Assembly (NCBI RefSeq): GCF_002024805.1
Contig: NZ_CP014337.1
Span: forward strand, 2,666,001-2,730,000
Direction of reading: 5' to 3'
DNA from: Elizabethkingia bruuniana
GTDB lineage: Bacteria > Bacteroidota > Bacteroidia > Flavobacteriales > Weeksellaceae
DNA: 64,000 nt
The first letter of the stretch is position 1. Each line of letters begins with the position of its first letter. Position numbers and translations under genes: made by a program. Below the pieces are notes generated by a model that worked only from the letters and a program-made list of their open reading frames with translations, searched no databases and was not told the origin of the DNA. Positions 1 through 15,215 of this stretch are shown one piece after another.

Positions 1-273
1 ATAATATATTATATAGGTTAATTATTTAGCATTTATATTACAATGCAAACACAAAGTTTTATAGAAATTAAAATAAAAGAAGCCACTTCATCTTTTCCCA
101 TAAATTCTATTTTTCATAAAGCTTCATTTTTTTAATAAAGAATGCGATTTTACAATTGTACATTTCGAAAGGCTACTAGATGATAGCGTCTTCAGACAAA
201 CCAATTACATATTAAACAAAAATCATTTTGTTCAAACACCATCATAGAGCAGATAGTTTACAATTATATTTCT

Positions 274-659
274 TTGATGGTGAAAAAAGACATTTCATAT
301 AAAAATGGGATATCCATGCAAATCAAAATTTATGCAGATTGGAAATCATTAAAAATTATTCTAAAAAATATTTTGGATAATACAATTAAGTATAATTTAC
401 CTAAAGGAAACACAAGCACCAATGAAAACATACTTACTGATAATTATTTTTCTATTACCATTGAAGACATTGGAATAAGTAGAAGTAAAGAACCACAAAA
501 AGAAATTTCATGCAAATCATAGAAATCATCATCATCAATATAAGAGTTTAGGATTCCAATTCTGCGAATTAATATCAGAAAAAAAACAATAATTTTCTAG
601 AATTGAAATCAGTAGAGAATAAAGGAACTAAAGTGACTATCTTTTTATTAAAGACATAA
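274..659 (+). pseudogene. Decayed sensor histidine kinase C-terminus (HATPase remnant)
   Basis: Pieces of a histidine kinase ATP-binding domain lie in three different reading frames. Positions 274-522 encode an N-box-like stretch (DWKSLKIILKNILDNTIKYN) followed by a degenerate G1 box (EDIGIS). Around 542-590, in a second frame, come residues resembling the G2 box (LGFQFCELISE). In a third frame, up to the stop at 657-659, the usual terminal motif (ENKGTKVTIFLL) is readable. At least two frameshifts are therefore needed to restore one protein. Bases 1-273 hold no continuous frame and probably represent more of the same decayed gene. The remnant ends 2 bases before the intact LytTR regulator, as expected for a former kinase-regulator pair. 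Confidence 0.65.
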
Positions 660-8177: not shown

Positions 8178-8330
8178 ATTATTTTAATTTTGTCAATATT
8201 TATAAAAGCTCTGAAAGCCATTTTTGTGAATTTAAGAAAATAAATAATTATTTCATTCACAAATAACAATCTATTTCACATCAATGATTAAAGTCACAAA
8301 ATAATTAAAATTAGGGTACTGCAATTAAAC

Positions 8331-8358
8331 AAAAGAGCCCCAAATTGAGGCTCTTTTA
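8331..8358 (-). terminator. Terminator after the VKOR-thioredoxin gene
   Basis: AAAAGAGCC pairs with GGCTCTTTT around a 10-nt loop, giving a U-tract on the minus strand 20 bases after the stop. It ends the peptide-export operon. Confidence 0.8.
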
Positions 8359-8378
8359 TATTATTTTTGGATTAGAAA

Positions 8379-9893
8379 CTATTGTTCTTCCATCAAATCA
8401 TCGATAAAATAATAAATATCTTCGCGTTCATATACGCTTGGATATTTATACTTATTAACAATAAATATTGGTGTAAAATTCAGTGAATGTTTATCATTTT
8501 CGAGTGTCTGTATTTCCAATGCATGAAGGAATGGCTGATTAATTTCTGCTTCGCCATAAGTCTTGAAAAATAGATCATGATCTCTTTTTTCAAACCAGAA
8601 GTGTAAAGCCGTCAAAAACTCTTTCTGATCTTTTAAATAAATTTCATACAGCTTGGATAAGAGCTTTTTAAAATTCTCATCTGCACGGAAGTCACGATAA
8701 TTAAACCTTATTTGAACCGAAATATCCTCTGATTTTTCCAATAACTTCTGAATAATTTCATGTCCTCCTTTACAAAATCCACAATAAGGATTGGAAATTA
8801 TTGCCATATGAAGCTTACCACCAGGATTACCTACAAAGAATAATTCTTTAGGATTTTCAAAGGTAATAGGTTCCTCAGCTTCTAACTCTCGTTTAAACAA
8901 CTGGAAATTCCTTTTAAATCTTATATTCTTCATATGATTCTTCTTCAGTTCATCATATTTCAGATTTAAATTTTTAAGATAATAAACAAGTCCAAATATC
9001 CCTCCCATAAGTACCAATGAGATCAGGAACGGATAAATATGGTACCCTCCATTTAATTTCAGGAGACTTAATACAAACTGTCCTATAAGAATTGCCGCTA
9101 TAAAAAGACATACTTTACAAAAAGCTTTAAGCACTACAGACTGCATATATAGTGAATATCCAACTACAAGTAAGGATATTGTACTTAATACAAATAAAAC
9201 GGTTCCTGAAAACGGAATTAGTATACCAATGAAAAATAAACTCAGGAAATAGATAAAACTATAATCCTGAAGTTTTAATCCGAACAAACTAAACGTACCT
9301 GAGCCAATTACTTTATCACAGGAAGAACGCTCATCGGAGCCCTGACCTGCCCCACCACCACAAATATTACTAATGATAGCGGAAGTTTGTCCCAGATCCT
9401 GAAAGAATAGTTCATAGGAAAGCATAATTCCTATAACACTCAAAATATTAAAAGCGCTTACCCACCATGTATTAAATGGTAAACTGATTAACAGAAACAG
9501 TCCAATGAGTATATAGAATATATTCTTTTTTTCTATTTTATCAGATTTCTCCTGGTGCTGATCGTTCATGATCAGCACAAAATTACCAACATTTTCTAAA
9601 AATTCTTTTTCAGAATAATGGTATTTTTTATCCGAAAACAAATCATAGCCATCTTTTGTGCGCTGTACCAATGTAAATTTACTCTGTCCATCCTGCTTTA
9701 CTATCGCTACATATTTATCAGGAAGTTCTCCCCATATATCCTCTTCTATTTCATAAGCATCATTCTCTATTCTGAAAAAGCCCAGTGTATCACTCAACGC
9801 AAGTGCTGATGGGTAATCAGGATGTGAGTTAAATTGAAAATAAAATTCTTCTTTATCGAGTTTTAACTGGTGTATTAGCTGGTCAAAATTCAT
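8379..9893 (-). CDS. VKOR-thioredoxin disulfide-forming protein with C39-like N-domain
   Basis: This 504-residue protein has three parts. Residues 1-110 resemble a C39 peptidase-like domain (HPDYPSALALSDTLGFF, then YVAIVKQD) without its catalytic Cys. Residues 125-305 are a multi-helix VKOR domain with C178, C192 and the active CxxC C259-C262 (FCKVC). Residues 345-504 are a thioredoxin-like domain with the redox motif C371-GF-C374 and a cis-Pro loop near FTPIFI. Known VKOR-Trx proteins reoxidise a periplasmic thioredoxin and so make disulfides. It is the last gene of an operon that exports Cys-rich peptides, so oxidising those peptides is the obvious proposed role (inference). Confidence 0.85.
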   Translation of the reverse strand: MNFDQLIHQLKLDKEEFYFQFNSHPDYPSALALSDTLGFFRIENDAYEIEEDIWGELPDKYVAIVKQDGQSKFTLVQRTKDGYDLFSDKKYHYSEKEFLENVGNFVLIMNDQHQEKSDKIEKKNIFYILIGLFLLISLPFNTWWVSAFNILSVIGIMLSYELFFQDLGQTSAIISNICGGGAGQGSDERSSCDKVIGSGTFSLFGLKLQDYSFIYFLSLFFIGILIPFSGTVLFVLSTISLLVVGYSLYMQSVVLKAFCKVCLFIAAILIGQFVLSLLKLNGGYHIYPFLISLVLMGGIFGLVYYLKNLNLKYDELKKNHMKNIRFKRNFQLFKRELEAEEPITFENPKELFFVGNPGGKLHMAIISNPYCGFCKGGHEIIQKLLEKSEDISVQIRFNYRDFRADENFKKLLSKLYEIYLKDQKEFLTALHFWFEKRDHDLFFKTYGEAEINQPFLHALEIQTLENDKHSLNFTPIFIVNKYKYPSVYEREDIYYFIDDLMEEQ

Positions 9894-9954
9894 ATCAATA
9901 TTGTTGTGATTTTAATGTATAATTTTTTGGTGTTTTTCTTGTGTTATATGCTAT

Positions 9955-11259
9955 TTAGCTCTGATAGCCTAATAGCTTTCTGAATTGATAGAAGAAACGC
10001 TCTATCAGTCGGAGATCTTGTGTTACAATCTCTGCATTGCCTTTTAATTCTTTATCAAAAGACAATTTTTTATTAAAAGAGGTTGTTAACCCCTTAGGAA
10101 GACTTACATCTACATAATAGTTTCCATCTTTGTCCGGCACTGAGGACATATTTCGCACACGACCTTCTACTATTCCGAACTCCTGGAACTGATAATTATC
10201 TAATTTTATTAAAACTTTTTGTCCCGGTTTAACTTTTCCGGAGTTGACTGAAGGTACTGTCAGCCTGCCAATCAGTGTTTCCTTTTCTTTAGGCATCACT
10301 GTAATCAATACTTCTCCTGCTTTCACAAACTGATGCTCTCCCAGATATTGCTGAAAGCTTACCGTTCCATTGGCAGATGAAGTAAATAAATAATTTTGTT
10401 CCCAGTTGTTAAGAGATTTTCTCAATTGCTCGAACAGCTGAATTGCCTGGGAAGAATAGTTAACTTTATCTTTCTGTGCATTAATAGAAACACCACTTTT
10501 GGTCTTTTGTATTCCGGAAATCCCTTCCTGTAGCTGTGAGATTGACATATTAACATTTTCCACACTCTGTCCTGCCTGCAGAAGTTTGATTCTTTCCTGA
10601 TCTAGTTCAGATGCAGAAATCACACCCTGATTATAAAGCTGTTGTGATCTTTCAAATTCTTTTTTAGACAATTCGTACTTCGCCTGTTCCAGCCTTTTTT
10701 GCTGCTGTAACGCCTGAATCCTGTTTCTGGATTCAGAAAGGCTCTGCTCTGCAGCTACATTATCCGGAGCGTACGGCTGAAGACGTGTATATAGCTGTTC
10801 ATCTGTTAAAGCTTTGGCAAAAGCATTATAATCTCCCTGAACTTCTCCTAATTTAAATCCGGAAGTTTCTACTAAAGGAAAATTCTGCAGCTGCCTGTTG
10901 TCTAAATTATTAACTATATCCCGAAGTTTTAGCACATCCTGATAGTGTGCTGTGGACTGCAAAATTAATAATTGCTCCCCTTTATTAACCACTTGGTGAT
11001 CTTTTACAAAAAGAGCTTCTATTTTACTATTAATTCTTGATTCTAATTTCTCTGGTGGATTCTGCGTAGAGATTATAACCTGAGAAGGTACAAATTCGGG
11101 GTATTTTATAATATAACTCATTAATAATATGAGTAGTAAAATAATAAAAATAATAGTATTTCCCCATCGGATCATCCAGTGTGGCGGACGGGTTAAAATG
11201 TCCTGTACACCTTCAGAACGCAATTCTATTTCGTCTAAAATATCTCTCTTTACTTCCAT
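9955..11259 (-). CDS. HlyD-family adaptor of a peptide exporter
   Basis: This 434-residue periplasmic adaptor protein has a cytoplasmic N-terminus and one membrane helix (about residues 30-48). Biotinyl-lipoyl-like half-motifs follow, on both sides of a long coiled-coil hairpin (about 150-270, rich in Gln, Glu, Leu and Lys). A beta-barrel segment ends the protein. It matches the partner of C39-peptidase ABC exporters in type 1 secretion of GG peptides. It is separated from the peptide genes by a perfect inverted repeat, which may lower its expression relative to theirs. No dedicated TolC gene is present in this locus. Confidence 0.9.
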   Translation of the reverse strand: MEVKRDILDEIELRSEGVQDILTRPPHWMIRWGNTIIFIILLLILLMSYIIKYPEFVPSQVIISTQNPPEKLESRINSKIEALFVKDHQVVNKGEQLLILQSTAHYQDVLKLRDIVNNLDNRQLQNFPLVETSGFKLGEVQGDYNAFAKALTDEQLYTRLQPYAPDNVAAEQSLSESRNRIQALQQQKRLEQAKYELSKKEFERSQQLYNQGVISASELDQERIKLLQAGQSVENVNMSISQLQEGISGIQKTKSGVSINAQKDKVNYSSQAIQLFEQLRKSLNNWEQNYLFTSSANGTVSFQQYLGEHQFVKAGEVLITVMPKEKETLIGRLTVPSVNSGKVKPGQKVLIKLDNYQFQEFGIVEGRVRNMSSVPDKDGNYYVDVSLPKGLTTSFNKKLSFDKELKGNAEIVTQDLRLIERFFYQFRKLLGYQS

Positions 11260-11267
11260 ATAATAAA

Positions 11268-11300
11268 ATTATGAATCCTTTCTTGAAAAGGATTCATAAT
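11268..11300 (-). terminator. Perfect inverted repeat between peptide genes and HlyD
   Basis: A 14-bp perfect stem (ATTATGAATCCTTT and its complement) with a 5-nt loop lies 8 bases before the HlyD start. It may be an attenuator that lets the small peptides be made in excess over the export machinery. Confidence 0.6.
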
Positions 11301-11353
11301 TATTTAGATTGAATACTTTTACTTATTCTTGATTAATATTCTGTTAATGAATA

Positions 11354-11536
11354 TTAGAAGGGATTCCCCGGATTGGGAGCCATACAGATAGGCTGAGTTT
11401 TCATTTTATCCGGGCAATACTCATTACAAGGTGTTGGGATATGTTCGCCTTTAACAATACAAATTCCCCATCCTTCTGGTAATGGTTCTCCGCCACCTAC
11501 GATTTCTTTAAGTCCTTTTCTTTCGATCTTTTTCAT
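11354..11536 (-). CDS. GG-leader Cys-rich peptide precursor 1
   Basis: This 60-residue bacteriocin-like precursor has the leader MKKIERKGLKEIVGGG, ending in a double-glycine site. The core is about 45 residues, rich in Pro and Gly, with four Cys (I-C, P-C, Y-C, I-C). The leader matches the other precursors in the locus (MKKL-x-R-x-x-L-K-x-V-x-GG). A shared upstream box (CAACCAAATTA) precedes the start by about 19 nt. It should be cleaved after GG by the C39 exporter encoded upstream. The activity of the core is unknown. Confidence 0.8.
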   Translation of the reverse strand: MKKIERKGLKEIVGGGEPLPEGWGICIVKGEHIPTPCNEYCPDKMKTQPICMAPNPGNPF

Positions 11537-11579
11537 AATATAAATAATTTGGTTGTTTTATTTAGTCTATATTTTATTT

Positions 11580-11756
11580 TTAAGGATTAGGAGCCCAACA
11601 TGCCCCTTCGTATGTTGATGCCCTACAAATTCCCGAAGGACTATCAAAGCTTAGTGCACAACATTTTGATTTTCCGGGACAATCGATGCCAGCACCAGGA
11701 TTACATGCCAATCCACCTGTTATAACCTTTAATTGGTCTCTTACTAATTTTTTCAT
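11580..11756 (-). CDS. GG-leader Cys-rich peptide precursor 2 (C-C-CC-C-C framework)
   Basis: This is a 58-residue ORF that standard length cut-offs miss. The leader MKKLVRDQLKVITGG is followed by a 43-residue core with six Cys at 18, 26, 32, 33, 44 and 53. The spacing C-x7-C-x5-CC-x10-C-x8-C, followed by Trp, is nearly the same as in the precursor at 12472. That order is the one used by inhibitor cystine knot (knottin) peptides. The upstream box TCACCAAATTA is present. The ATG at 11756 is fixed by the conserved MKKL leader. Confidence 0.8.
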   Translation of the reverse strand: MKKLVRDQLKVITGGLACNPGAGIDCPGKSKCCALSFDSPSGICRASTYEGACWAPNP

Positions 11757-11790
11757 AATGTTTTAATTTGGTGATTTTATAAAAGCATTC

Positions 11791-11988
11791 TTATTTTACG
11801 GGAAAGCCTATAGGATAGACATCATTACCTCCAAAGACAGGATCATTTCCACCATCTGGACAAGCTAAATGTTCTGCTTCACATGGACGCCATATTCCAA
11901 AACACCAATCTCCACATGCCTCAGGACCTCCCGGTAAAACCGCTCCTCCTTTTACATTTCTAAGCGTTTTTCTTTCTAGTTTTTTCAT
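11791..11988 (-). CDS. GG-leader Cys-rich peptide precursor 3
   Basis: This is a 65-residue precursor with leader MKKLERKTLRNVKGG. The core has four Cys (EAC, DWC, RPC, LAC) in its first half and a glycine/proline-rich tail (DGGNDPVFGGNDVYPIG) in the second. It is acidic and aromatic. The upstream box AACCAAATTAAA lies about 20 nt before the ATG, as in its neighbours. It is a likely substrate of the C39 exporter; its function is unknown. Confidence 0.8.
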   Translation of the reverse strand: MKKLERKTLRNVKGGAVLPGGPEACGDWCFGIWRPCEAEHLACPDGGNDPVFGGNDVYPIGFPVK

Positions 11989-12021
11989 ATTGAATATATT
12001 TAATTTGGTTAAATTAGAGAC

Positions 12022-12225
12022 TTAGATTTCACAAAAATCAGGAATACCATTTGCCGAAACTGTTATACAAGCTCCCATATTTCTGCAAAATACCTGGGTA
12101 TTACAAGGACAATCATAGTACCCTCCTTCTTCCGGAAGTTGATCTCCTGGAACAAGATGATTGTTACATACTTTAGAACCGCTTCCTGAGAAACTTTTCA
12201 ACTCTTTTCTTTCAAGTTTTTTCAT
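12022..12225 (-). CDS. GG-leader Cys-rich peptide precursor 4 (degenerate GG site)
   Basis: The start is placed at the internal ATG at 12225 because the MKKLERKELKSFSGSG leader begins there; an upstream in-frame ATG adds 15 residues unlike any sibling. The precursor is 67 residues with six Cys in the core, including D-C-P-C. The cleavage site reads S-G-S-G instead of GG, so processing may occur after the last Gly or be inefficient. The upstream box is a variant (AATCAATAAAATA). Confidence 0.75.
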   Translation of the reverse strand: MKKLERKELKSFSGSGSKVCNNHLVPGDQLPEEGGYYDCPCNTQVFCRNMGACITVSANGIPDFCEI

Positions 12226-12420
12226 AATAAATATTTTATTGATTAGTAAATCTAATATAGGATTTTTCACACTATATTGAAAAATTATTTGTCAATATTT
12301 TATTATTTATAGTGCTAATCAATCATTCCTTAATTAATTATATAACAATATTGACAAGACAAAATAAATTAAACTATATTCATTTCCAGCCTGCCAAGGT
12401 TAATTATACCCAGTAAAAAT

Positions 12421-12448
12421 GAAAAGCCTAATTTAAAATAGGCCTTTC
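12421..12448 (-). terminator. Hairpin downstream of peptide precursor 5
   Basis: GAAAAGCCTA pairs with TAGGCCTTTC with one mismatch and a short loop; minus-strand U residues follow. It lies between precursors 5 and 4, so the next peptides may depend on read-through or on their own promoter. Confidence 0.5.
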
Positions 12449-12471
12449 AAATATTTCAATCCAAAAGTCAA

Positions 12472-12645
12472 TTATGGTAGCCAACATTCAGCAGGTTCAT
12501 CACCTATAGCATAACACAATCCGCTATACCCCTGAAATCTTGCACAACAAGTAAAACCATTTTCACAGTTAAAGCCTGCGCTTGGTCTGCAAATTCCTTT
12601 TCCTCCTTGAATTTCTTTCAACTGATTTCTAATTAGTTTTTTCAT
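12472..12645 (-). CDS. GG-leader Cys-rich peptide precursor 5 (C-C-CC-C-C framework)
   Basis: This is a 57-residue ORF below usual length cut-offs. The leader MKKLIRNQLKEIQGG is followed by a 42-residue core with Cys at 19, 27, 33, 34, 44 and 54 (C-x7-C-x5-CC-x9-C-x9-C), followed by Trp. This is the same framework as in precursor 2 at 11580, although the residues between the cysteines differ. The upstream AACCAATTAAATA box is present. It is the first peptide gene after the exporter gene, 74 bases below its stop. Confidence 0.8.
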   Translation of the reverse strand: MKKLIRNQLKEIQGGKGICRPSAGFNCENGFTCCARFQGYSGLCYAIGDEPAECWLP

Positions 12646-12719
12646 ATTAAATATTTAATTGGTTATTTACCAAAATAATACTTTTAACAATAAACACTCA
12701 AATTATTTATCAATAATTT

Positions 12720-14921
12720 TTAGTTTCCAAGCTCCAACTGGTTTTTCACTAATCTGTAATACTCTCCTTGTAATGCAACTAATTCTGTATGATTCCCCTC
12801 TTCTACCACTTTTCCTTTGTCCAGAACAATAATCTTATCAGCATGCTTCACAGTTGATAATCTATGAGCAATAACAATAGCTGTTTTTCCTTTAAAGAAC
12901 TGTTCCAGATTTTCCATGATAACTTTTTCATTATTAGCATCCAATGCACTGGTCGCCTCATCAAAAAAGATATATTCGGGAGATTTATAAACTGCACGAG
13001 CAATAAACAGACGTTGCTTTTGTCCGCCACTCACACCAATACCTTCATTTCCTATTTTAGTATTATAGCTTAACGGAAGCCCTTCAATAAATTCCTTAAT
13101 ATTAGCTATATCAACTGCTTTTCGAAGTTTTTGTTTATCTATATAATCTTCTCCAACTGCAATATTATTGGCAATAGTATCATTGAAGACATAGCCTTCC
13201 TGCATCACAACACCACAATGATCTCTCCAAAAGCGTGGTGAAACATTTTTTAACGGTGTATTTCCTATTTTGAGCTCACCTTCCTGTGGTTCATAAAACT
13301 TCATCAGTAATTTTAACAATGTTGTTTTCCCACTTCCGCTGGCTCCAACAATTGCCGTTGTTTTCTGATAAGGAATACTCAGATTAAGGTTTTCAAAAAC
13401 ATAAGCATCCGAGCCTACATAGCGAAAAGTAAGATTTTTAACCTCTATGTCCTGTTGAGGTATCTCTGACGCATACTGCTCTTCAGCATTTTCTTCATCT
13501 TCTTTATCATGAATTTCTCCCAAACGTTCTAATGATATTTTTGCATCCTGAGTTTGGCGAATAAAATCAATAAGCTGCATCAACGGTCCGTTTAACTGTC
13601 CGATGATATACTGCACGGAAAGCATCATCCCCAGAGTCAAATTACCATCTAATACCAGTTTTGCTGATAAAAAGCTAACCAGAATATCTTTCATCTGATT
13701 GATAAAATTACCTCCTACAGATTGCCATTGCTCCAATGAAAGTGATTTGATACGAAGCTTGAATAATTTTACTTGCAGAAACTCCCATCCCCAACGCTTT
13801 TGCTTTTCAGCATTGTGCATTTTTATTTCCTGCATTCCGTTAACAAGCTCTATCACCTTACTCTGCTCCTGCGAAATCTGTGAAAACCTTTTATAATCAA
13901 GCTCTTTTCTTTTTTTCAGGAAAAAAGTAATCCATCCAATATAAAGAACTGCTCCTAAAAGATAAATTAGGAATAAACGGTAATCATAAAATAATAGTAC
14001 AATACTAAATATAATAAGATTGACCAATGAAAATAAAGTATTGAGAGAAGAGTTCGTTAGTAACTGTTCAATACGATGGTGGTCATTTATCCGCTGCATG
14101 ATATCACCGGTCATCCTTGTATCAAAGAAACTAATCGGCAACTTCATCAATTTGATAAAGAAATCAGAAATAATAGAAATATTAATCCGGGTAGAAAGAT
14201 GAAGTAAGATCCAGCTGCGAATAACTTCTATTCCCATCCTGCCTGCAAAAAGCATCACCTGTGCTAATAACACTAGATAAATAAAGTTAATATCATGATT
14301 CTGAATACCGACATCGACAATACTTTGAGTAAGAAATGGAAAAATCAAAGAAAGTAAACTTCCCGCCAGAAGCCCAACTGCCAGCTGCAAAATCAGATTT
14401 TTATACTTTAGTAAGTACTTTGAAAGAAATTTAAAACTGGCTTTACTTTCTTTATCATCCCATTCAGTCTGATAAAAAGCAGGTGTAGTTTCCAAAATAA
14501 GAGCAATACCCTCTTCTGTTTTTTCATCTGCATTTTCCCCAATCCAGAATTTAATAAACTCTTCCCTTGTATAAGTAATTAACCCATAACTTGGATCAGA
14601 AACATATACTGTATAATCGTTTTTCTTTTTTTCAATTTTATAAACCACAACAAAGTGGTTTTTGTTCCAGTGAACAACACAAGGTAGCGGAACTTCGGAC
14701 ACTAAATCATCAAAATTAATCTGTACACCTAGTGTGCGGTATCCGAGATTTTCTGCAGCATCACTTAGCCCTAACAGACTACTTCCTTCACGTGTGGTTT
14801 CAGAAAGACCACGTATTTGTTGTAATGGTATGCTTTTTCCGTAATATTTACTTACAATCCGCAAACATGTAGGACCACAGTCCTTGGCATCAGGCTGCTT
14901 ATAGAATGGAAATTTTTTCAA
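12720..14921 (-). CDS. C39-peptidase-containing ABC exporter for GG-leader peptides
   Basis: This 733-residue bacteriocin-type exporter starts at a TTG codon, fixed by the conserved MKKFPFYKQPDAKDCGPTCL start. The N-terminal C39 protease carries C15, H89 and D109 as the catalytic triad. Six transmembrane helices follow (about 165-440). The ATP-binding domain has Walker A GASGSGKTT, signature VSGGQKQR, Walker B YIFFDEATSALD and a switch His in VIAHRLSTV. It should remove the GG leader and export the peptide core. Peptide genes flank it on both sides on the same strand (15090 upstream, five downstream), with HlyD and VKOR-Trx after them. Confidence 0.95.
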   Translation of the reverse strand: MKKFPFYKQPDAKDCGPTCLRIVSKYYGKSIPLQQIRGLSETTREGSSLLGLSDAAENLGYRTLGVQINFDDLVSEVPLPCVVHWNKNHFVVVYKIEKKKNDYTVYVSDPSYGLITYTREEFIKFWIGENADEKTEEGIALILETTPAFYQTEWDDKESKASFKFLSKYLLKYKNLILQLAVGLLAGSLLSLIFPFLTQSIVDVGIQNHDINFIYLVLLAQVMLFAGRMGIEVIRSWILLHLSTRINISIISDFFIKLMKLPISFFDTRMTGDIMQRINDHHRIEQLLTNSSLNTLFSLVNLIIFSIVLLFYDYRLFLIYLLGAVLYIGWITFFLKKRKELDYKRFSQISQEQSKVIELVNGMQEIKMHNAEKQKRWGWEFLQVKLFKLRIKSLSLEQWQSVGGNFINQMKDILVSFLSAKLVLDGNLTLGMMLSVQYIIGQLNGPLMQLIDFIRQTQDAKISLERLGEIHDKEDEENAEEQYASEIPQQDIEVKNLTFRYVGSDAYVFENLNLSIPYQKTTAIVGASGSGKTTLLKLLMKFYEPQEGELKIGNTPLKNVSPRFWRDHCGVVMQEGYVFNDTIANNIAVGEDYIDKQKLRKAVDIANIKEFIEGLPLSYNTKIGNEGIGVSGGQKQRLFIARAVYKSPEYIFFDEATSALDANNEKVIMENLEQFFKGKTAIVIAHRLSTVKHADKIIVLDKGKVVEEGNHTELVALQGEYYRLVKNQLELGN

Positions 14922-15054
14922 TACTAATATTTTTTCACTAAATACAGAAATAAAGAATATAGCTTATACTCCTTCTTCTATTTTTTTATTTTGGATATTT
15001 ATATCTGATTCTGACTATGCATTCAGATATTTTCGTTGCGTATAATTGAATATT

Positions 15055-15079
15055 AAAGGCAGATATAAATACCTGCCTT
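15055..15079 (-). terminator. Hairpin after peptide precursor 6
   Basis: AAGGCAG pairs with CTGCCTT around a 10-nt AT loop, 11 bases after the precursor stop, with U-rich sequence on the minus strand. It may attenuate transcription into the exporter gene. Confidence 0.45.
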
Positions 15080-15089
15080 CAGTTTTGTA

Positions 15090-15215
15090 TTAAGGATTTA
15101 GACAGCCGCCATCCCACATTTCACATCTTCTTTTTATAGGATCCCAGTCAATACAGCATTTTGGAGCCATTCCTCCATTAACCTTTTTAAGTTCGTCTTT
15201 TTGTAACTTTTTCAT
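15090..15215 (-). CDS. GG-leader Cys-rich peptide precursor 6
   Basis: The start is set at the internal ATG at 15215, where the conserved leader MKKLQKDELKKVNGG begins; the longer frame up to 15326 adds an unrelated hydrophobic stretch. The precursor is then only 41 residues with a 26-residue core containing four Cys, two of them adjacent (KCC). The upstream box ACCAACCAAATAAAA lies about 20 nt before the start. It is the promoter-proximal gene of the export locus. Confidence 0.75.
   Translation of the reverse strand: MKKLQKDELKKVNGGMAPKCCIDWDPIKRRCEMWDGGCLNP

Follow-up and report, generated by a model that had tools for sequence, protein, structure and literature searches.

Bacteroidetocins, which have been proposed as class IIf bacteriocins of Bacteroidales (PMC6671954, PMC8546649), are the closest described systems. 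They share with the locus analyzed below their origin in Bacteroidota, a 15-aa GG leader, a core with four Cys, a C39 ABC exporter, and a thiol oxidoreductase gene. Dedicated thiol oxidoreductases are already known from bacteroidetocin loci, where the gene is required for full toxin activity (PMC6671954). The bacteroidetocin locus differs in that it mostly has only one peptide and encodes a five-TM protein of unknown function as well as a thiol oxidoreductase that is a separate protein.

Our analysis of a 64,000-nucleotide window of the Elizabethkingia bruuniana genome (contig NZ_CP014337.1) concerns positions 8379-15215, where genes for six leader peptides, a C39 exporter, an HlyD adaptor, and a VKOR-thioredoxin protein are encoded on the minus strand (Table 1). 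These genes had been described as collinear in the original prediction, and every one of them was found in its place. The five-TM protein and the separate thiol oxidoreductase are absent; the locus contains no further long ORF, and its oxidase is a fusion protein. No candidate immunity gene was found in 8379-15215; an obvious one is likewise missing from bacteroidetocin loci.

Table 1. Features of the peptide locus in window coordinates; domains of the VKOR fusion are given in residues of the protein.
Feature	Position	Strand	Match or source
Hairpin and T run directly 3' of VKOR stop	8330..8362	(-)	read by eye in sequence
VKOR fusion, 504 aa	8379..9893	(-)	Pfam VKOR, Thioredoxin_4
C39-peptidase-like domain (predicted), catalytic residues absent	VKOR fusion residues 1-112
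Extra TM helix (predicted)	VKOR fusion residues 119-140
VKOR core, C178, C192, C259, C262	VKOR fusion residues about 142-283		PF07884 over cut-off
DsbA-like thioredoxin domain, C371-C374	VKOR fusion residues about 340-504		Thioredoxin_4
HlyD-type adaptor, 434 aa	9955..11259	(-)	TIGR01843 type_I_hlyD E 4e-28, under curated cut-off; PF13437 HlyD_3
Precursor, 60 aa, MKKI leader with terminal GG, 4 core Cys	11354..11536	(-)
Precursor, 58 aa, 6 Cys, C-C-CC-C-C order	11580..11756	(-)
Precursor, 65 aa, 4 Cys	11791..11988	(-)
Precursor, 67 aa, 6 Cys, SGSG at expected cleavage site	12022..12225	(-)
Terminator-like hairpin, 3' of 12472 precursor	12420..12449	(-)	hairpin scan
Precursor, 57 aa, 6 Cys, C-C-CC-C-C order	12472..12645	(-)
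C39 peptidase ABC exporter (PCAT type), TTG start	12720..14921	(-)	PF03412, PF00664, PF00005
Precursor, 41 aa, 4 Cys	15090..15215	(-)	bacteriocin_sig at its cut-off

Terminator-like sites are not in excess in the region (4 found, 4.2 expected from shuffles); the hairpin following the 12472 precursor may set transcript levels inside the locus. The hairpin following the VKOR gene, with a loop of 9 that is beyond the limits of the scan, is a plausible transcript end. A sigma-70 promoter scan of the locus yielded no excess over shuffles, the host using other promoters, and a search for TTG-N17-23-TAnnTTTG gave 0 sites on the coding strand.

The leaders end with GG in five precursors and with SGSG in one (12022). 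One leader starts with MKKI, in contrast to the common MKKL type of the original prediction. No Pfam match over the cut-off was obtained for the six precursors, and all fall under the curated cut-offs of the NCBIfam models leader_Chryseo (NF047798) and CCPGW_fam (NF047792). Same-length homologs with all Cys retained exist in other Elizabethkingia for five of the six, with codon changes mostly more often synonymous than non-synonymous; the 11354 precursor has 90% identity in three other Elizabethkingia, every Cys being kept. A same-length homolog of the 11791 precursor is absent from the three other Elizabethkingia loci; by eye, this precursor resembles a six-Cys peptide of Chryseobacterium. 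The shortest of the six is the 15090 precursor. The C39 domain of the exporter is catalytically complete (Cys15, His89, and Asp109, invariant across 113 aligned exporters). Judging by sequence, the GG or GG-like leaders, the complete C39 exporter, and the HlyD adaptor constitute a C39-processed GG-leader peptide export system.

A recount confirmed the even number of Cys reported for every core (4, 6, 4, 6, 6, and 4), for which the chance is 1/64 taken alone. Among 328 distinct precursors found near VKOR fusions and collected by leader only, the number of Cys is even in 316 and odd in 12, and none is Cys-free; after clustering at about 60% similarity, 188 of 199 are even (binomial p about 1e-42, shared ancestry being ignored). 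The Elizabethkingia genome itself contains about 50 precursors with this kind of leader: 45, all with four or six Cys, were read out around leader-family matches, and 22 places outside the locus pass the leader_Chryseo NF047798 model. The six peptides of the window are about one eighth of a repertoire dispersed over the genome, which the original prediction had not recognized. Core Cys spacing is very diverse both in relatives and in this genome. The C-C-CC-C-C order occurs in 18 of 107 six-Cys clusters, and the two window peptides having it (11580 and 12472) show fourth loops of 10 and 9; knottins combine this order with short loops. An AF2 core model (pLDDT 71) contains two short strands and gave no fold match in the PDB; therefore, a knottin fold, with its 1-4, 2-5, and 3-6 bonds, is not claimed.

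It is established that VKORs of other bacteria serve general secreted proteins, and the VKOR fusion could be such a cell-envelope disulfide oxidase that merely neighbors the peptide genes. Conservation of linkage in relatives, proposed as a check in the original prediction, bears on this directly. Of 158 distinct VKOR-fusion loci, not counting the one in the window, 155 lie no more than 7 kb from the C39 exporter or from Cys-rich precursors (the C39 exporter in 121, a precursor in 141). Twenty divergent or paralogous VKOR loci have an exporter in only 6 cases and a precursor in 19, which indicates that VKOR follows the precursors. The fusion and the leader family are both present in 60 of 197 genomes of the family and discordant in 9; the fusion is missing from 130, and some genomes have several copies, nearly all adjoining precursors. 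A general oxidase should hardly be so tightly linked, so often lacking, and so consistently placed when multiplied, and we consider this explanation highly improbable. Another clade of C39 exporters (21 loci, none with VKOR) has 39 candidate precursors, of which 26 are Cys-free and none has at least four Cys. The arrangement of VKOR fusion and peptide genes, as compared at the sequence level, recurs across the phylum Bacteroidota. Linkage, parity, and the VKOR-less clade, all of them comparative evidence, thus support the predicted role of the locus as a putative producer of disulfide-stabilized secreted peptides with VKOR as the folding catalyst.

In the oxidase itself, both the VKOR and the thioredoxin parts are present as predicted, but a degenerate C39 domain and a predicted inverted topology had been overlooked. 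The N-terminal domain matches the C39 domain of the exporters (hhalign prob 97.7, E 2.4e-12), and its model (residues 1-112) matches PCAT1, ComA, and a leader-bound C39 protease with Z of 10.6-11.1. In these structural matches its start falls roughly at the end of the catalytic Cys segment; 131 of 159 homologs have no Cys in the domain, and the HF motif of the exporter aligns to a stretch of it without a conserved His. The N-terminus is thus predicted to be a catalytically dead C39 fold. The domain is kept in homologs of the fusion, and of all its domains this is the one whose sequence covaries most with the leaders: the partial Mantel correlation with leader distance, given the other domains, is 0.263 (0 of 500 permutations, which leave shared ancestry in), compared to -0.068 for the TM part and 0.089 for the DsbA-like domain. 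The VKOR core matches Synechococcus VKOR (Z 14.4). By structure, the DsbA-like domain resembles periplasmic enzymes; it also resembles the copper-resistance protein ScsC. The latter resemblance, together with the fact that four or six Cys fit metal sites as well, would agree with core Cys that bind metal or stay reduced, the thioredoxin part being a reductase that maintains this state for export. We give this very little credence, as VKOR is an oxidase family, its four Cys, along with C371 and C374, are invariant in the 159 homologs, and the diversity of core Cys spacing is unlike a metal site.

The AF2 model of the fusion (mean pLDDT 74, pTM 0.45) has six TM helices. The extra helix, preceded by about 116 residues, is hydrophobic in 97% of homologs. 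In canonical VKORs, K/R-rich loops are cytoplasmic and the active site is outside; here the computed charge bias is opposite, which is a prediction only. Compared with 14 canonical VKORs of Bacteroidota, the fusions have more K+R after TM5 (8.8 vs. 1.0) and fewer in the TM2-3 loop (0.70 vs. 2.71), and the active-site side is richer in K+R in 158 of 158 homologs. Given the extra helix and the reversed bias, the active sites, the thioredoxin domain, and the C39-like domain are predicted to face the cytoplasm; by the model, all three working parts most likely lie on this one side. The side was assigned from the positive-inside rule and the number of helices, and because an N-terminal domain of 115 residues that has no signal peptide would be difficult to export; should the extra helix not span the membrane, the active site would come to lie in the periplasm. 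In a reducing cytoplasm, moreover, disulfides normally do not persist. A precedent for a VKOR on the cytoplasmic side is the enzyme of the archaeon Aeropyrum pernix, reported to act in two compartments (Hibender 2017, as cited in PMC12453122); it is not known to have a C39-like domain or a link to peptides.

The VKOR active site and the DsbA-like domain could instead be periplasmic and oxidize peptides that have already been exported and have lost their leader; the C39-like domain would then be a docking module or functionless. The known VKOR-DsbA fusions work outside the cytoplasm, as do DsbA enzymes, and both parts find their top structural matches among these enzymes. The bacteroidetocin work, in the text covered, assumes an oxidoreductase without placing it. 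However, the charge bias speaks against this orientation, the extra helix would then put the C39-like domain on the periplasmic side, apart from the precursors that still bear a leader, and this domain is kept in homologs and covaries with leaders. We regard this alternative as possible but doubtful.

The best explanation, and one that we find somewhat probable, is leader-guided oxidation of the precursors at the inner face of the membrane, followed by C39 cleavage and export. Precursors would be made with a C39-type leader, which the dead C39-fold domain of the fusion would hold without cutting, and the DsbA-like domain would take a disulfide from the VKOR Cys relay and pass it into the peptide core. 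The relay would comprise C371-C374, C178/C192, and C259-C262, with a quinone as the probable final electron acceptor. As the working parts are most likely cytoplasmic, oxidation would occur on the leader-bearing precursor, ahead of export. The active C39 exporter would then remove the leader and, together with HlyD and an outer-membrane channel whose gene lies elsewhere, export the core. In this view, a large set of leader-bearing, Cys-paired peptides would be processed and exported centrally by the locus. Gene content, domain folds, conserved Cys, linkage, Cys parity, and charge bias are computational findings; leader binding, the membrane side, the order of steps, the quinone, and secretion are inferred from them. 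By analogy with bacteroidetocins, the peptides are most likely an antagonistic set; this weakest step is a guess, because neither an immunity gene nor killing activity is known. Tentatively, we also propose a class of Bacteroidota systems with inverted quinone-coupled oxidases, leader recognition by dead C39 domains, cytoplasmic disulfides formed before export, and one oxidase per dozens of dispersed precursors, the disulfide being the sole modification.

If this is true, a leader-guided disulfide-forming enzyme joins the known peptide-modifying enzymes, and ordinary mesophilic bacteria are shown to carry out oxidation at the membrane face that is reducing. Moreover, hundreds of Cys-paired peptides, often missed by gene finders, would be exposed in Chryseobacterium, Elizabethkingia, and more distant Bacteroidota as candidates for antibacterial or signaling roles, and the VKOR fusion could serve as a tool for producing disulfide peptides in the cytoplasm.

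No earlier description of the C39-like/VKOR/DsbA-like fusion or of its tie to large peptide repertoires was found in the literature searched. The search, which covered papers readable without subscription, retrieved nothing linking VKOR to a C39 peptidase or double-glycine leader. For VKOR and bacteriocins it returned only papers judged off-subject by title and abstract, and for vitamin K epoxide reductases and precursor peptides only general reviews; a term search of two papers on Bacteroidales peptides gave no mention of VKOR. The architecture itself may already be annotated, since a VKOR subgroup that has a peptidase domain at its N-terminus may be listed in CDD.

Several known systems resemble parts of the locus. 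The NCBIfam putative bacteriocin families leader_Chryseo and CCPGW_fam share the leader type, and their model descriptions do not name an oxidase. The C39 domains of PCAT and ComA (8vp5, 5xe9, and leader-bound 6mpz) have the fold of the N-terminal domain of the fusion, which differs from them in the missing catalytic Cys segment, the lack of a conserved catalytic His, and its attachment to an oxidase rather than an exporter. The Synechococcus VKOR-thioredoxin fusion (PDB 4nv2, 3kp9) has the same VKOR core fold, four catalytic Cys, and C-terminal thioredoxin-like domain, but neither the N-terminal C39-like domain nor the extra first helix, and its orientation is opposite to that predicted here, where the charge comparison was made on the 14 canonical Bacteroidota VKORs. 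Finally, the locus is distinguished from those of bacteroidetocins by the C39-like/VKOR/DsbA-like fusion, the HlyD adaptor, and its number of peptides, six, to which other parts of the genome add more than 40 precursors.

Translation confirmed the predicted gene content of the locus: six precursors, the C39 exporter, the HlyD adaptor and the VKOR-thioredoxin protein (VKOR fusion) are all present on the minus strand of this single-contig genome (4.43 Mb).

Features of the peptide locus (window coordinates, in coding direction)
Feature	Coordinates	Strand	Evidence	Minus-strand order
Precursor	15215-15090	minus	translation	first
C39 exporter	14921-12720	minus	translation	second
Precursor	12645-12472	minus	translation	third
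Precursor	12225-12022	minus	translation	fourth
Precursor	11988-11791	minus	translation	fifth
Precursor	11756-11580	minus	translation	sixth
Precursor	11536-11354	minus	translation	seventh
HlyD adaptor	11259-9955	minus	translation	eighth
VKOR fusion	9893-8379	minus	translation	last

The exporter C39 domain retains Cys, His and Asp and so should cut the leaders. The exporter ORF begins with TTG at 14921; since the ORF of a relative (L085) has 746 aa, the true start may lie further upstream. A long near-perfect hairpin, terminator-like on the coding strand, separates the last precursor from the HlyD gene (11267-11301).

The VKOR fusion, 96-97% identical to its E. miricola and E. occulta counterparts, was found in 67 of 197 Weeksellaceae and 41 of 395 Bacteroidota genomes. 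Neighbourhoods were read in regions from these family and phylum genomes and in 80 named loci, nearly all from Chryseobacterium, leaving 158 loci besides that of the window after removal of duplicates. Within 7 kb of the VKOR fusion, an exporter was present in 121 loci (median gap 424 bases), a leader-type precursor in 141 and at least one of them in 155, contig ends accounting for some of the loci lacking such neighbours. The Chryseobacterium order is VKOR, precursors, exporter, so that order varies and linkage is constant. Among 20 divergent or paralogous VKOR loci of the family only 6 have an exporter and 19 a precursor. At the genome level, 188 of the 197 family genomes are concordant for VKOR fusion and leader-model match (60 with both, 128 with neither; 7 with VKOR only, 2 with leader only), relatedness inflating the significance of this agreement. 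In a contrast set of 21 loci with exporters of another C39 clade, VKOR was absent from all; 26 of their 39 candidate precursors, listed by a pattern looser than the leader score and including a few doubtful ORFs, are Cys-free, and none has four or more Cys. One member is found at 4.217 Mb of the window's genome (L013, 5727-10267: exporter and Cys-free precursor); its exporter has near-identical (85-89%) counterparts in several genera, which suggest recent transfer.

The six precursors are genuine genes. Five have homologues of the same length in other Elizabethkingia, each retaining every Cys position, and synonymous changes exceed non-synonymous ones in most comparisons; 11580 varies fastest (19 non-synonymous and 15 synonymous changes against one relative). 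The precursor set differs among Elizabethkingia species: a 47-aa precursor with six Cys directly follows the VKOR gene in E. miricola, E. occulta and strain YR214, that of E. miricola falling in an unaligned stretch missing from the window, which has no such precursor at 8180-8379. Even Cys numbers, originally noted for this locus, extend well beyond it. Precursors near VKOR fusions were picked by a score that reads the leader up to and including the GG site and takes no account of the core; of 328 distinct ones, 316 have an even and 12 an odd number of Cys, none being Cys-free (188 and 11 after clustering; binomial p 1e-77 and 1e-42, respectively, ignoring shared ancestry, though the clusters are diverse). 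The 4-Cys peptide 11791 resembles, by eye, a 6-Cys Chryseobacterium peptide (L096) with the remaining pattern retained, a plausible example of Cys changing in pairs. The order C-C-CC-C-C, found in two peptides of the window and in many from Chryseobacterium, is reminiscent of knottins; a core model and PDB fold comparison gave no support for such a fold.

Pfam recognizes VKOR and thioredoxin domains in the VKOR fusion and nothing in residues 1-112, which profile comparison matches to the C39 domains of linked exporters (97.7% probability). The match starts past the catalytic-Cys segment, and the catalytic His is not retained. In an AF2 model (79 sequences, mean pLDDT 74, pTM 0.45), residues 1-112 match PCAT1, ComA and a leader-bound C39 protease (Z 10.6-11.1), and residues 340-504 match ScsC (Z 13.7). 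Residues 142-283 match Synechococcus VKOR (Z 14.4); as helical bundles can reach Z 13 by chance with this aligner, the VKOR assignment rests equally on Pfam with the Cys pattern and on fold. None of the six oxidase Cys varies among 159 sequences. A C39-like domain that binds leaders would be expected to track them in sequence; across 85 thinned loci, its partial correlation with the leader, given the other two parts, was 0.263, compared with -0.068 for the TM part and 0.089 for the DsbA-like domain, which is suggestive of leader recognition.

Six TM helices are present in the model (119-140, 143-163, 208-225, 230-254, 260-279 and 286-328). The VKOR core is thus preceded by one helix more than in canonical VKOR fusions, which would place the C39-like domain, active site and DsbA-like domain on a common side. 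The extra helix, preceded by about 116 residues, is strongly hydrophobic in 97% of homologues. Compared with 14 canonical Bacteroidota VKORs, the fusions have more Lys and Arg after TM5 (mean 8.8 vs 1.0) and fewer in the TM2-3 loop (0.70 vs 2.71) and TM4-5 (0.40 vs 1.79), with counting windows set by simple rules and 5 of the 14 stopping short of the TM5 stretch. The active-site side is the richer in all 158 homologues, across three groups, and by the positive-inside rule is predicted to be cytoplasmic. The Aeropyrum pernix VKOR reportedly acts in two compartments (Hibender 2017, cited in PMC12453122). Most likely, the C39-like domain would bind the precursor still bearing its leader, the DsbA-like domain would oxidize it, electrons would pass to VKOR and a quinone, and the exporter would then cut the precursor and export the product. 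The main rival places oxidation outside, against the predicted topology. A VKOR fusion dedicated to peptide oxidation is common to both readings.

The NCBIfam leader_Chryseo model gave 53 matches in this genome at a permissive threshold, 22 above the curated cut-off. ORFs read out there yielded 47 candidates, 45 with four (23) or six (22) Cys; the two Cys-free ones look spurious. Two of the 45 belong to the window locus, and its other four precursors plus one at 0.558 Mb bring the total to about 50. The dispersed precursors (L309-L356; contig 1, 0.20-4.39 Mb) lie mostly far from the locus, with clusters at 0.404, 1.656-1.664, 3.927, 4.311 and 4.392 Mb. Outside the window, the closest homologues of the exporter in this genome are 43% identical (lanthipeptide-like locus), 35% identical (Cys-free peptide locus) or truncated with a stop; we infer from this that it is the window locus that serves the dispersed peptides. 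The truncated copy (L014, 8596-9192; 3.12 Mb), a decayed relative of the window locus, is 62% identical over about 200 residues and has an orphan 4-Cys precursor at a distance of 5 kb. A C39 exporter at 0.95 Mb (L012, 2509-10148) has neighbours resembling, by eye, lanthipeptide dehydratase and cyclase, and no precursor was found there. A second VKOR fusion (L011, 5563-8600; 0.5556-0.5586 Mb), 27% identical, has next to it a 6-Cys precursor and a protein that by eye looks TlpA-like, with no exporter nearby.

A literature search, covering few subscription journals, found nothing tying VKOR to such leader peptides; NCBIfam lists related leaders as putative bacteriocins. Among known systems, bacteroidetocin loci need a thiol oxidoreductase gene for full activity, and their peptides shift in gels upon reduction (PMC6671954); the target of these peptides is BamA (PMC8546649).
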